57,053 nt of DNA from Candidatus Nitrosocaldus tengchongensis (lineage in GTDB: Archaea; Thermoproteota; Nitrososphaeria; Nitrososphaerales; Nitrosocaldaceae). The position numbers and the translations under genes were made by a program. The notes beneath the pieces are model-generated. The model ran no database searches. It worked only from the letters and a program-made list of their open reading frames with translations, and was not told the DNA's origin. The stretch spans positions 1 to 57,053 of the forward strand of contig JACAFJ010000003.1 in assembly GCA_013538675.1 (NCBI GenBank), read 5' to 3'. The number at the start of each line of letters is the position of its first letter. Position 1 is the stretch's first letter. Below, in pieces: positions 16,227-23,361 of the stretch.

Positions 16227-17120
16227 TTATGGTGTTATCGTATCATAGATCAGCCTTGCTGCTACTCCCATGAGTGCTATTGCAACTAATCTCCTCAGAA
16301 GTATATCCCTTACCCTGCCTAGGAGCCTAGAGCCTATCTGTGCCCCCATGAACGTCCCACCAACGAGCATAACTGCCAAAGAATACTCTGGATGCCCTAG
16401 CATGACATGTGCAGCAACCCCTGATATAGAGGATAGCAGTATGATGAGGTGCACTGTAGGTACTGTAACATGCATATCCATCCTAAGTACCATGAGCATC
16501 ATTGGTACAAGTATGGCTCCACCACCAACCCCAAAGAGACTTGCTATGAAGCCAGAGAGGAAGCTTACAGCATACGATACCTGCCTTGGATAGTGCTTCT
16601 CCTTCACATGGTAGTATGGGTTTATGAGCATCTGTACTGCTACCCCTGCAAGTAATAATGCAAAGTATAGTTTGAATGATGAGAGATCTAGCAGGGATGA
16701 TGAGTATGCCCCAAACACTGCTCCAGGTAATGCAAATATGGCAAGCTTCAGTGCAGTAGTATAGTCTATTCTACCAGCTCTACCTTTATCTCTTCTGTCT
16801 CTATAACTACTACTTTTGTTATCATCACCAACACTGCTCTCATCTCCTTTACTACTACTGCTATTGCTACTACTCCTATTCTTACCCTTACTACCATCCT
16901 TCTGCATAGCGTATGATATGGTTGATGATGCTGATGTCGAGATCACCGTGAACATGCTTGTACCAGCGATCCTGCTAGGCTCTATACCCATGAATGCAAG
17001 TACTGGTACTACGATGAAACCACCTCCTAACCCAAGCAGGGAGCCAAGTATGCCTGCTGATACACTTACAATAGCAACTACCACTGCACTTATAACATCC
17101 ATATCATACCATTCAGCCAA
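16227..17120 (-). CDS. TauE/SafE family membrane permease
   Basis: An integral membrane protein with about eight helices and the two family repeats, each with a Gly-rich start: GILGSLLGLGGGFIVVPVL and GFIASLFGVGGGAILVPMM. The family exports sulfite, organosulfonates or related anions; the substrate here is unknown. A hydrophilic loop of roughly 40 residues, rich in Ser, Asp and Lys (about 75-118), separates the halves and is encoded by trinucleotide-rich DNA. Confidence 0.88.
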   Translation of the reverse strand: MAEWYDMDVISAVVVAIVSVSAGILGSLLGLGGGFIVVPVLAFMGIEPSRIAGTSMFTVISTSASSTISYAMQKDGSKGKNRSSSNSSSSKGDESSVGDDNKSSSYRDRRDKGRAGRIDYTTALKLAIFALPGAVFGAYSSSLLDLSSFKLYFALLLAGVAVQMLINPYYHVKEKHYPRQVSYAVSFLSGFIASLFGVGGGAILVPMMLMVLRMDMHVTVPTVHLIILLSSISGVAAHVMLGHPEYSLAVMLVGGTFMGAQIGSRLLGRVRDILLRRLVAIALMGVAARLIYDTITP

Positions 17121-17198: not shown

Positions 17199-18329
17199 TT
17201 GAGGATCATCCTAGTAGGCTTTGGAGTTGTAGGACAGAACCTAGTGAAGTTACTACTATCAAGGACTGATGATATATATGCAAGGTACGGAATGAAACCT
17301 AGGATAGTTGCTACGCTGGATAGTAAGGGAGCAGTTGTATGCCCATCTGGCCTAAACCTTCAGAGACTTCTTGAGGTTAAGCGTGTGTATGGTACTGTAG
17401 CGGCTTATGATGACAGGTATGAAGTTGGGGAACAAGAGAAGCAGTATATGGATAGCACAAGTCTGGAGGTTAGTAGTAGTGATGATGATGATTATAATAA
17501 TAATAATAATAATAATAGAGTTGAGGAGATAGTAAGGAGTGTAGACGCTGAAGTACTTGTAGAGGCTACACCAACAAATCTTAAAGATGGCGAACCAGGG
17601 CTCAGCAATATAATCACTGCTATAAAGCATGGTAAGAACATAATTACAGTTAACAAAGGTCCTTTAGCGCTTGCCATGCCTTCACTACTTGAACTTGCAG
17701 AGTACAATGGAGTCATACTTAGGTTCAGTGGTACAGTTGGAGGGGGTACACCTATCCTGGAGTTTGCAAAACACTGCCTGAAAGGCGATAGAATACTCTC
17801 ATTCAAGGGAATACTCAACGGCACAACAAACTACATACTGAGCATGATGGAGGAGGAAGGATTTACCTTTGATGAAGCATTGAATGATGCTAGAGGTAAG
17901 GGTTATGCAGAAGCAGACCCAAGCCTTGATATAGATGGGCTAGATGCTGCTGCAAAGTTGGTTATAATGGCAAACTGGATAATGGATCTGAAGATAACCA
18001 TGAGGGATGTTAGGTTCAAGGGCATAAGGGATGTAAGCTTGAACGATATACTTGAAGCTAAGAAACATGGCAAAGTAATAAAGCTGATAGCATCATGTGA
18101 TGAGAGCAGGAGGTTATCCGTTGAACCCATGCTTATAGATAAAGGTGAGCCTTTATGCGTTAATGGTACTCTTAACGCTGTTACATTCAAGTCAGAGCAC
18201 TCTGGTGAACTTACCGTTATAGGTAAGGGTGCTGGAGGGATGGAGACTGCAAGTGCAATACTACGAGATCTTATAGAGGTTAGGGAGACTATGAGTATTG
18301 GTATGGGTGTAGGGTTGGGTAGGAGTTGA
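17199..18329 (+). CDS. hom: Homoserine dehydrogenase
   Basis: Reduces aspartate semialdehyde to homoserine on the route to Thr and Met. It has an N-terminal Rossmann motif (GFGVVGQNL), the NKGPLAL block, and the catalytic block GTVGGGTPILEFAK followed by GILNGTTNYILS and GYAEADPSLDIDG. There is no C-terminal ACT domain, as in other short archaeal enzymes. The start is TTG at 17199. An insertion of poly-Asp and seven Asn (about residues 92-106) is encoded by an AAT trinucleotide tract. The stop overlaps the start of the PUA-protein gene by 4 bp. Confidence 0.93.
   Translation: MRIILVGFGVVGQNLVKLLLSRTDDIYARYGMKPRIVATLDSKGAVVCPSGLNLQRLLEVKRVYGTVAAYDDRYEVGEQEKQYMDSTSLEVSSSDDDDYNNNNNNNRVEEIVRSVDAEVLVEATPTNLKDGEPGLSNIITAIKHGKNIITVNKGPLALAMPSLLELAEYNGVILRFSGTVGGGTPILEFAKHCLKGDRILSFKGILNGTTNYILSMMEEEGFTFDEALNDARGKGYAEADPSLDIDGLDAAAKLVIMANWIMDLKITMRDVRFKGIRDVSLNDILEAKKHGKVIKLIASCDESRRLSVEPMLIDKGEPLCVNGTLNAVTFKSEHSGELTVIGKGAGGMETASAILRDLIEVRETMSIGMGVGLGRS
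17493..17517 (+). repeat. AAT trinucleotide tract inside hom
   Basis: About eight TAA/AAT units, preceded by GAT units, encode Asp and Asn runs. This is a microsatellite-like tract in a coding sequence and a candidate site for length variation. Confidence 0.85.
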
Positions 18330-19600: not shown

Positions 19601-20959
19601 CTAGGTAAATTTAGTCTTTTCTACCCTTCTGTAAAATAGTGCAAGTACAATGGCTATAAGCCCTGCTAGTATAGGAGGAGCAAAAGGAAACTCTGGTATC
19701 ACTGTAACTGTAGCGTTAAGTCTCTCAATCTTACTACCATTGCTCAACTCAACCTCAACCCTCCACACCCCCTCTATGCTTGGTGCAAACTCATCCTCAA
19801 CAATACCATTGCTCAGATCCCTTGTAGTATCCCTTGCTATACTACCATCTGGTCCCATCCAGATGAACCTTGCGTTACCATCACTCATGTCAGAGTGTAC
19901 AATAGCCCTTATACTCTGCCCAACATCTATAATACCATCATCGTTACCATCCAAGAGTTGTAGTGATGCCGATGATCTGCCTTCATCCTTGCTAAGTTCA
20001 GTCTCTCTCATGATGATCTTGAATACTTGAACCCTATTGTTCCCAGTATCAACCACAGCAAGCATATCACCACGTGCAGCAACACCAGTTGGGAAGCTGA
20101 ACTCGCCATCATCTGAGCCTTCCTTGCCGAAGTTGAAGAGGAAGTTCCCATTGCTGTCGAATACCTGTATCCTGTTGTTGAATGTATCAGCAACTATTAT
20201 GTTACCAAACCCATCAACTGCAACCCCATTTGGAAACATGAACTCGCCATCATCTGAGCCTTCCTTGCCGAAGTTGAAGAGGAAGTTCCCATTGCTGTCG
20301 AATACCTGTATCCTGTTGTTCCATACATCTGCAACGATTATCCTATCCCTGCTGTCTACTGCAACACCAGTTGGGAAGCTGAACTCGCCATCGTTAGAAC
20401 CTTCCTTGCCGAAGTTGAAGAGGAAGTTCCCATTGCTGTCGAATACCTGTACTCTATGCACATATGTATCAACTACTATGATCCTATCCCTGCTGTCTAT
20501 TGCAACACTGATAGGGTATGTGAACTGCCCATCGTACGAACTTGCTTTGCCGAACTGTAACTTGTAGGTACCCTTGTTATCGAATACCTGGATCCTGTAG
20601 TTGTGCAGATCAGCAACCACTATATCCCCTTTGCTGTTAACTGCAACACCTGATGGATGTGTGAACCCTCCAGGATCATAACCTGGAATACCAAACTTGA
20701 AGAGGAATCTACCGTTGCTATCGAATACCTGTATCCTGTTGTTCAGGTTATCTGTAACTATTATCCTGCCATTACCATCTATAACAGCACCATATGGAGT
20801 GTTGAACATACCATCAGACTTGTTATAACCAGTTATGACCATCTGCAATTTGAGAATGTAGGATGATGATGGTGAAGAATAAGCATCAACTATTATTATT
20901 ATTGGTGATGCAAGCAGTAGCAGAGGTAGTAATAGTGATAATAACATACGTATATTCAT
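19601..20959 (-). CDS. Secreted NHL-repeat beta-propeller protein with PEFPF C-terminal anchor
   Basis: A signal peptide (MNIRMLLSLLLPLLLLASP) is followed by six or more NHL repeats of about 47 residues, each with GVAVDSRDRIIVAD, NNRIQVFDSNGNF and FGKEGSDDGEF-like segments, which would fold into a beta-propeller. A beta-sandwich region follows, and the C-terminus has PEFPFAPP before a transmembrane helix and a basic tail, a surface-anchor arrangement common in thaumarchaeal exported proteins. The ATG at 20959 was chosen because it yields a clean signal peptide and sits 26-27 bp from a TATA box. NHL proteins bind protein or glycan partners; the ligand is unknown. Confidence 0.85.
   Translation of the reverse strand: MNIRMLLSLLLPLLLLASPIIIIVDAYSSPSSSYILKLQMVITGYNKSDGMFNTPYGAVIDGNGRIIVTDNLNNRIQVFDSNGRFLFKFGIPGYDPGGFTHPSGVAVNSKGDIVVADLHNYRIQVFDNKGTYKLQFGKASSYDGQFTYPISVAIDSRDRIIVVDTYVHRVQVFDSNGNFLFNFGKEGSNDGEFSFPTGVAVDSRDRIIVADVWNNRIQVFDSNGNFLFNFGKEGSDDGEFMFPNGVAVDGFGNIIVADTFNNRIQVFDSNGNFLFNFGKEGSDDGEFSFPTGVAARGDMLAVVDTGNNRVQVFKIIMRETELSKDEGRSSASLQLLDGNDDGIIDVGQSIRAIVHSDMSDGNARFIWMGPDGSIARDTTRDLSNGIVEDEFAPSIEGVWRVEVELSNGSKIERLNATVTVIPEFPFAPPILAGLIAIVLALFYRRVEKTKFT
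20094..20461 (-). repeat. Three near-identical direct repeats, period 141 bp, in the NHL gene
   Basis: Equivalent positions fall at 20100, 20241 and 20382, exactly 141 bp (47 codons) apart. About 80 bp per unit is almost identical at DNA level. The identity implies recent duplication or gene conversion of propeller blades. Confidence 0.9.
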
Positions 20960-20981
20960 ACAGCAGAGTCTCATGGTAGAA

Positions 20982-20989
20982 TATTTAAA
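20982..20989 (-). promoter_or_regulatory. TATA box of the NHL-repeat gene
   Basis: TTTAAATA on the minus strand, centred 26-27 bp before the chosen ATG at 20959. Confidence 0.5.
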
Positions 20990-21045
20990 CATAATGCATC
21001 CAATACATAACAAAAAGAAATAAGGTTTACGTACTCTCTACCTCT

Positions 21046-23196
21046 TTACTGGAATCTACCCTTTGCAGGGTTCTCATCCAGCGTTGGGTACCAGTTTGCG
21101 TTTGGTATTGCTATTACACCCATTCCTCCCCATGAGTCACCTAGATCAACATCTCCAGCAACTGCTATCATTGGATCGTTCTTCTCTATTGCTTCTTCAA
21201 TCTTCTCAACATCTATAATTCTAAGCACTGGAGCAAACTTTGCTGTTACATATGCGTAGAGTCCTCCACCTTCCTTGTAGCCGTATGAGACGCCATGTGT
21301 GCCTGAGTATCCTGGTATTACTAATGCAACATCTGTCTTGCTTGGATCCTCATAATCCAACTTCACAACGGTTATTGCTGCCTTTGCATGGTTCTCATCA
21401 TCTATAACGAAGAGTCCTCCAGAGTTTGCACTTACAACATATCTACCATCTGGGGTTATTGGGCTCTGTATTGGTGTTCCATTCACCTTAAGAACCTTCA
21501 CCAATGTTGGGTTTGATGGACCTCCAACCTTCTCACCTATATCGAATATCAAGAGCCTTCCCTGTAGTAGCCTATCTTGCTCAAGCATAACGAATGCTGT
21601 TACCCAGTACCTATGCCCATTGATCTCTGGCCCAATGTATGATGCTATTGGTATACCTACACCCAACTTCTTTCCTGGGGCTGCTGGATCATCGAGTTGA
21701 GCAGGGCTTATTGGTCTGTGCATCTCCTTCCTCTGATCTAGAGAGAGTACTGCTATATGATTTGCCATGTGGTATGGTCCTGCTATCAATCCATCTGGAG
21801 TTAGCCAGAAGCCATGTGGACCAGCAAGAGGAACACTAGCCCTTATTGAGAATTCTGGCTTTATATCCTCTGCCTTAACATTTGGATCGAACATCTTGCT
21901 AGCATCGAATACCTGGAACTCAGATCCAGCATTTATACCAGTTACAACCCACTTGTTATCTGGAGTAACTGCTATGTGTGCTGGGTCCATGCCAGTTGTG
22001 ATGTAGTTCTTGAATATCTCATGCTTCTCAGCATCTATAACTGTTAGGTAGTTGTCATGCCAGTTTGTCTGCACAACAAACTTGCCATCTGCTGACTCCC
22101 AGAGGTTGTGTGGATTATTCAAGCCTTGGCCTATCTTTGCTATCCTCTGCCAAGTCTGTGCATCTATAACGTTTATGCTACCTGGCCATGGCTTTGCGAA
22201 CTTACCAAGCAGATTGCCTAGATACTTATCCTTCATGCTATCGAACTGTGCATCTACCCATACCTCTCCAACTCCTGGTGTTGTTGGTGGTGGTAGTATG
22301 CTAGCAGGCCTCTCCCATGGAGCTGGACCCCATATCCAGGATGCGAACTTCTGCGTTGTTATATCATTTGCTGGATCGTTATCCTGTGTTATCGCATTGT
22401 ATGGTACACCAACTGAGATGACACCAACCATGTATGGATGGATTGCACATACATACACGTATACACCAGCATCTGGCTTCCATACCTGTGATCTATCTCC
22501 AGGGTTGAGTATTGCTAGGGTCTTTGCTGTATACTCCTTATCCATGTTCAACTGTAGATCGGTTATCCTTGTAACTACAGTTATTGTATGCACTGATGCT
22601 GCCTCACTGGCATCCCATTGCACTGCTGTCCCAGGCTCTATCTGGAGTGCTGATGGTACAAACCATGGAACAAACTCACTAACTACTATTGTTCTAGGCA
22701 TCTCTACCTGAGGCTGAGGTAACTCTCCAGTTACTGCTCTAGCCTGATAGTAGACTGTTACTGTAGCATTAAATACTTCTCCATTTGTATTATGCAACTC
22801 TACCTGCAATGCATTATTAAATACCCATGTCCCACTCGTGCCAACTGATCTGTATATCTCAGCATCGAACTCTTTGCCAGCAAGCTCATTCTGCCCTGTA
22901 ACTGCTGTACCCGCTGCAAATGTATTCTTTGGATGAAGTATGACTATATCTACATCCTTATCAGCTGTGAAGGTTAACCTTCCAGAATACACAACATTAT
23001 CTTGCAACTGTAGTACCTTTACAGCTTGGTGAGCTTCATGACCAACAAGCCATGCATGAGGCTCTGATGTCAACTGCTTGGTCTCTATATAGCGCTTTAT
23101 CCTTGCAGCATCAACGTTCTGAAGGCTTATTGGTGCTATTAGGAAACCAAAGACTGCTATTGCTGCTACAATTGCGCCTAATACTGCCTTGTTCAT
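21046..23196 (-). CDS. Secreted cupredoxin - nitrous-oxide-reductase-like beta-propeller protein
   Basis: Residues 1-31 form a signal peptide. Residues 33-155 are a beta-rich domain. Residues 168-265 are a cupredoxin with type-1 copper ligands H204, C251, H254 and M257 (SVHT, then CAIHPYM). Residues 310-715 are a seven-bladed YVTN/N2OR-like propeller. The propeller carries many blade-face histidines (H364, H381, H408, H462, H477, H481, H529, H635) in motifs such as NNPHNLW, GPHGFW, PYHMANH and NGHRYW. Nitrous oxide reductase has the reverse domain order, a CuA motif with two Cys and a DxHHPH motif, none of which is kept. A copper redox role outside the membrane is inferred. Codon use and a strong TATA box suggest high expression. 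Confidence 0.8.
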   Translation of the reverse strand: MNKAVLGAIVAAIAVFGFLIAPISLQNVDAARIKRYIETKQLTSEPHAWLVGHEAHQAVKVLQLQDNVVYSGRLTFTADKDVDIVILHPKNTFAAGTAVTGQNELAGKEFDAEIYRSVGTSGTWVFNNALQVELHNTNGEVFNATVTVYYQARAVTGELPQPQVEMPRTIVVSEFVPWFVPSALQIEPGTAVQWDASEAASVHTITVVTRITDLQLNMDKEYTAKTLAILNPGDRSQVWKPDAGVYVYVCAIHPYMVGVISVGVPYNAITQDNDPANDITTQKFASWIWGPAPWERPASILPPPTTPGVGEVWVDAQFDSMKDKYLGNLLGKFAKPWPGSINVIDAQTWQRIAKIGQGLNNPHNLWESADGKFVVQTNWHDNYLTVIDAEKHEIFKNYITTGMDPAHIAVTPDNKWVVTGINAGSEFQVFDASKMFDPNVKAEDIKPEFSIRASVPLAGPHGFWLTPDGLIAGPYHMANHIAVLSLDQRKEMHRPISPAQLDDPAAPGKKLGVGIPIASYIGPEINGHRYWVTAFVMLEQDRLLQGRLLIFDIGEKVGGPSNPTLVKVLKVNGTPIQSPITPDGRYVVSANSGGLFVIDDENHAKAAITVVKLDYEDPSKTDVALVIPGYSGTHGVSYGYKEGGGLYAYVTAKFAPVLRIIDVEKIEEAIEKNDPMIAVAGDVDLGDSWGGMGVIAIPNANWYPTLDENPAKGRFQ

Positions 23197-23218: not shown

Positions 23219-23226
23219 GTATATAA
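23219..23226 (-). promoter_or_regulatory. TATA box of the cupredoxin-propeller gene
   Basis: CTTATATA on the minus strand, centred 26-27 bp before the ATG at 23196. A second TTAAATAT-like element about 22 bp further upstream could be an alternative box. Confidence 0.5.
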
Positions 23227-23361
23227 GATTTTTGTACCACAATACTTAAATATCTCCATAAGAAAATGGACCTTATCCTATTTATGATCAAATATATGCT
23301 AAATAATAGGTTCAATTACCCCTATACGATTACTGTAACCTATATTATAGAATCATTGTGG

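Follow-up and report, generated by a model that had tools for sequence, protein, structure and literature searches.

Nitrous oxide reductase (NosZ, clades I and II) joins a seven-bladed propeller to a cupredoxin fold. In the NosZ sequences that we compared, all of which are database records, the propeller comes first and a CuA domain with two cysteines comes last; the CuZ site has seven histidines, and in one of these sequences (L070) the CuZ ligands H337 (NNPHG), H392, H443 and H504 occupy a P-H or P-x-H register. A lactonase-type clade III form (L-NosZ, NF052460) is built on a lactonase/YncE-type propeller. Thiocyanate dehydrogenase is another copper propeller enzyme, and the residues of its tri-copper site include H135, H136, H206, H381, H437, H482 and H528 (PMC6504805). 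The beta subunit of hydrazine synthase, which belongs to a heme complex, has no cupredoxin, and neither do the YVTN S-layer and YncE propellers. We know of no cupredoxin domain in thiocyanate dehydrogenase. In propellers generally, the innermost strands all begin on the same face, in a circle around the entrance to the central channel. For ammonia-oxidizing archaea (AOA) we know of no established enzyme downstream of ammonia monooxygenase, although such enzymes are expected to be copper proteins. Nitrosopumilus maritimus SCM1 and N. piranensis D3C reduce N2O, although AOA have no known enzyme for this reaction (PMC11408285).

We analyzed a window of 57,053 nucleotides (the whole stretch of DNA under study) from Candidatus Nitrosocaldus tengchongensis, whose genome carries archaeal amoA; at the protein level it is 96% identical to Ca. 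N. schleperae. A gene at 21046..23196 on the minus strand, as are all of its features given below, encodes a protein of 716 amino acids plus stop (start codon ATG at 23196, last base of the stop codon at 21046). From its N-terminus this protein is composed of a signal peptide, a small beta domain, a type-1 cupredoxin and a seven-bladed YVTN/YncE-type propeller. Judging from sequence comparisons, we put at about one half the chance that it belongs to a family not yet described and works as an exported copper redox enzyme. The coding sequence is real, as internal stops are absent from all orthologues in six Nitrosocaldus genomes and two genomes of the sister family. A GTG one codon upstream of the ATG leads to a 717-residue numbering; residue numbers used here start at the ATG. 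The promoter block GGTACAAAAATCTTATATA (BRE and TATA) lies at 23220..23238, 23 bases before the ATG, which makes a leaderless mRNA probable. The TATA box itself (TTATATA, 23220-23226) falls within this 19-base block, which is identical in all six Nitrosocaldus sequences while its flanks vary, and this conservation supports the TATA box proposed earlier.

The signal peptide (about residues 1-30, 23107..23196) consists of MNK followed by a hydrophobic stretch, with a best 15-residue mean hydropathy of 2.8 and cleavage near VDA-A, and the protein is predicted, as before, to be exported. The N-terminal beta domain (residues 31-160, about 130 residues, 22717..23106) carries the pattern GHExHQ..LH..LH. 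No Pfam family matched it, and AlphaFold pLDDT is mostly 64-86 over residues 41-150. Its H53, H56, H88 and H135 are the same in every Nitrosocaldus and sister-family sequence (53-54% identity between the two groups), and the four histidines are mostly conserved across the AOA proteins that carry the domain; it may therefore bind metal. The GHExHQ domain is widespread in AOA, where it is found in 490-aa proteins with DUF7482 and also in proteins with cupredoxins (L018-L021, L031, L033). The type-1 copper domain (residues 168-266, 22399..22695) matched Pfam PF00127 (Copper-bind) over its cut-off at residues 180-263 (E 2e-4) and has a short, amicyanin-like CxxHxxM ligand loop. Its ligands H203, C250, H253 and M256 are the residues of the original prediction (there H204, C251, H254 and M257). 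All four are invariant among the Nitrosocaldus and sister-family orthologues; in a set of 40 homologues, some at 26-31% identity, C250, H253 and M256 never vary, and 38 retain H203, which is gapped in the other two and substituted in none. C250 is the sole cysteine of the whole protein.

The propeller (residues 308-716, 21049..22275) is recognized by the Pfam YNCE-like model (PF21783) at residues 342-427, with 29.6 bits against a gathering score of 27.1, and by profile matches to the solved YVTN propeller 1l0q (E 3e-26) and to hydrazine synthase beta (E 6e-16). Seven strand-A starts could be placed from the 1l0q profile alignment together with the blade that the N-terminal strand completes, in agreement with the seven blades predicted. 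The about eight propeller histidines noted earlier were borne out as well: 8 of the 11 do not change from Nitrosocaldus to the sister family at 53-54% identity (H363, H380, H407, H461, H476, H480, H528 and H634). Five positions are near-invariant in the 40 homologues, each at the start of the innermost strand of its blade: H363 (NNPHN, blade 1, 22108..22110, 40 homologues), H407 (DPAH, blade 2, 21976..21978, 40), H461 (AGPHG, blade 3, 21814..21816, 37), Q577 (PIQSP, blade 5, 21466..21468, 39) and H634 (GTHG, blade 6, 21295..21297, 39). In the 1l0q alignment each stands one or two residues past the residue, mostly a proline, that opens the innermost strand. The four histidines all fall within 14 strand-A-start positions of 416, for which random placement has a probability of about 8e-7 when the anchors of blades 6 and 7 are set by hand from the 1l0q alignment. 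H380, H476 and H480 lie at or beside strand B-C turns and are thus predicted to be on the same face of the propeller. As the near-invariant histidines stand at innermost-strand starts, in the register of CuZ ligands, they likely share one metal site. Two AlphaFold models (the window protein and four loci, 88-96% identical) have mean pLDDT values of 45 and 56, too weak for distances; they place H363 and H407 at the strand starts of blades 1 and 2 but fail in the last blades, so the clustering of the histidines is something that we infer. Histidines at several innermost-strand starts are also seen in plain YncE-like propellers (L037:10983-11960 and L038:4947-6161), and a His-lined propeller mouth may thus be a wider trait.

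A distant relation to NosZ is supported by hhalign (P 1.1e-5). Both proteins have a seven-bladed propeller joined to a cupredoxin fold and histidines at the same strand-A register, and the CuZ histidine of NNPHG is aligned with H461; the predicted likeness to nitrous oxide reductase thus holds, with the conserved propeller histidines in one register and on one face. The two differ in domain order, since the cupredoxin is N-terminal to the propeller here, in the HH of the DxHHxH motif, which is replaced by N360 and N361 (both points as originally predicted), and in having four conserved ring histidines instead of seven. The single cysteine excludes CuA, and NosL was found in none of 11 genomes searched. 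On these grounds we dropped an identity as NosZ. The partial HMM match to L-NosZ (1e-8) covers positions 155-234 of 480, about two blades, and scores 34 bits against a curated cut-off of 700. Profile matches to thiocyanate dehydrogenase, with E-values of 1e-5 to 4e-4, support a distant relation to this enzyme too, and the end point of one of them (391-478 against 438-528 of 5f75) sets H634 on copper-site His528, the one site residue that could be placed, from match end points. The hydrazine synthase beta subunit is the top fold match and the second profile match. The YVTN S-layer and YncE propellers resemble the protein in blade sequence and fold, but 1l0q has no conserved ring of histidines.

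Most relatives outside Nitrosocaldus and its sister family are frames of 839-1176 residues with a multicopper oxidase (MCO) at the N-terminus and the cupredoxin-propeller part at the C-terminus. Several shorter relatives (633-666 aa) are without the MCO part, and the 1.5 kb or so around them showed no MCO either. The MCO of Methylocystis rosea is a separate gene directly upstream of the cupredoxin-propeller gene, and it is 55% identical to the fused MCO part in the AOA genome G119. On the M. rosea plasmid (L037:13329-16176) this two-domain MCO adjoins a cupredoxin-propeller protein annotated as hypothetical, and NnrS is encoded about 4 kb away. The MCO associated with the family resembles copper-resistance oxidases. 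A close copy of the MCO-fusion oxidase is absent from the source genome, in which the best match is 33% identical. The MCO-linked proteins of AOA and Methylocystis share the cupredoxin, the propeller, H363, H407, H461, H634 and Q577 with the Nitrosocaldus form, to which they are about 30% identical; most add the MCO and H459/H463, whereas the Nitrosocaldus form has the GHExHQ domain and H380, H476, H480 and H528 instead. In a tree the two forms are deeply separate, with a long branch for Methylocystis whose position is uncertain. We found no description of a cupredoxin-propeller family in the literature outside subscription journals, and the two forms constitute an undescribed family, recognized here, which adds an MCO-linked group to the propellers whose histidines stand in the register of the NosZ ligands. 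In a genome taken as N. adriaticus (L115:7283-10221) stop codons interrupt the oxidase part of the fusion, which suggests a decaying copy.

Orthologues are present in all six Nitrosocaldus genomes examined (88-96% identity) and in both sister-family genomes (53-54%). Across the order, 42 of 400 genomes have strong matches to the protein family; all 42 belong to four amoA-bearing families, and 38 of them carry amoA. The original prediction made the protein a candidate for ammonia oxidation or NO chemistry and would have been refuted by homologues solely in non-copper, non-nitrogen organisms, which is not what we found. Strong homologues are limited to AOA families, apart from two Methylocystis plasmids, and none was found in a viral contig scan or in phages. 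A role in core ammonia oxidation was not supported: the family is present in just 38 of the 264 amoA-bearing genomes of the sample and absent from 226, and an amoA-bearing genome from another genus of the window's own family (G006, probably Nitrosothermus by its NirK) is without the protein. Because most AOA lack the family, it is not a core ammonia-oxidation enzyme, and we dropped this candidate role; the earlier reading as an exported type-1 copper protein with a histidine-bearing propeller is supported. The family had no match in the genomes that we take to be N. maritimus SCM1 and N. piranensis D3C and is therefore not their N2O reductase; an AOA-wide N2O reductase was likewise dropped on distribution. 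The AOA distribution thus corrects the idea of a core enzyme of either process.

In the mechanism that we propose, the propeller would bind a metal, most likely copper, where its central channel opens, in a site built on H363, H407, H461 and H634 with Q577, and in the Nitrosocaldus clade H380, H476 and H480 would add further histidines from the same face. The type-1 copper would connect this site with the pool of blue-copper proteins in the periplasm, relaying single electrons in one direction or the other. As an MCO is fused or adjacent in most relatives, the usual flow there is probably from a substrate to the propeller site, then to the type-1 copper and on to the O2-reducing MCO. Nitrosocaldus has no cognate oxidase, and its partners would be soluble plastocyanins. 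By analogy with NosZ, thiocyanate dehydrogenase and hydrazine synthase, the substrate could be a small nitrogen or sulfur species. Some observations count against an enzyme. The plain YncE-like propellers with same-register histidines, from Methylocystis and Manganitrophus, are of uncharacterized metal content; four histidines may bind one metal or none; and the nearest matches by fold and by profile, 1l0q and hydrazine synthase beta, are not known to bind copper in their propellers. The protein is a concrete target for purification: it is a conserved copper protein, exported and probably with a second metal site, and each of the Nitrosocaldus genomes examined encodes it.

Other explanations have to be weighed against a redox enzyme. 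The cupredoxin could act alone in electron transfer or at the cell surface, with the propeller as a scaffold for docking or for an S-layer and with its histidines in structural or hydrogen-bonding roles. We regard this as possible although unlikely: propellers are common scaffolds, the best profile match is an S-layer propeller, and propellers of the MADH/AADH type (2h3x) dock cupredoxins, but every subfamily retains the histidines despite the divergence of most other residues (about 29% identity), and the oxidase fusion points to a redox function. A role in copper or metal handling, in which MCO-linked forms would oxidize Cu(I) or another metal bound by the propeller and N-terminal domain and the Nitrosocaldus form would scavenge or buffer copper, appears more doubtful. 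It would fit the likeness of the MCO to copper-resistance oxidases, the many histidines on a single face, and the rise of N. viennensis MCOs under copper limitation (PMC7785015). The genome taken as N. viennensis (G082) has no match to the family, however, so the MCO4 proteins of this species are different ones, and in the lineages that we looked at no copper transporter adjoined the gene.

The remaining two alternatives concern nitrogen oxides. NirK is reported as absent from Nitrosocaldus and present in Nitrosothermus (PMC10811736, PMC7819960). In line with the absence originally stated, our archaeal NirK profile drew at most partial, MCO-like matches from the six Nitrosocaldus genomes and the two of the sister family; it found full-length NirK in G006 and G119 and a clear NirK in G056. 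Within the Nitrosocaldus family and its sister family the protein is thus present in all eight NirK-less genomes and absent from the sole NirK-bearing one, as if it made or removed NO in place of NirK, by nitrite reduction or by oxidation of NO or hydroxylamine. We consider such a substitution improbable, since eight genomes and one represent very few independent events, perhaps one to three, and the exclusivity is a correlation. The type-2 copper motif of NirK is absent, the Nitrosocaldus protein gave no hit at E = 1 or below with the two-domain NCBIfam NirK model (TIGR02376), G056 and G119 have NirK as well as the MCO-linked form, and NirK is reported in some Nitrosomirales (PMC10811736). 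An all-copper enzyme, with a low-nuclearity propeller site and a type-1 relay, performing NO or nitrite chemistry in NirK-less thermophilic AOA is to our minds no more probable. That the protein is a nitrous oxide reductase of reversed order, perhaps the one missing from AOA, seems very improbable indeed: the weak similarity to NosZ and L-NosZ and the N2O-reducing strains that lack a known enzyme (PMC11408285) are outweighed by the copper-site and domain differences given above, the L-NosZ score, the missing NosL and the absence of the family from the genomes taken as these strains.

The gene neighborhood is conserved within Nitrosocaldus, with genes for arginyl-tRNA synthetase, a tRNA methyltransferase, NAD(P)HX dehydratase, an NHL propeller and proteasome beta, and it differs in the sister family and in G056 (taken as N. 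gargensis). These neighbors are housekeeping genes and offer no functional clue. The NHL-repeat propeller (19601-21013), which has a signal peptide and a PEF-like C-terminal anchor, is encoded directly downstream in the compared Nitrosocaldus loci and evolves much faster, with 52-78% identity among them. Elsewhere in the window, a TauE-like transporter and homoserine dehydrogenase (16227-17120 and 17199-18329) contain low-complexity inserts with Ser/Lys and Asp/Asn runs.
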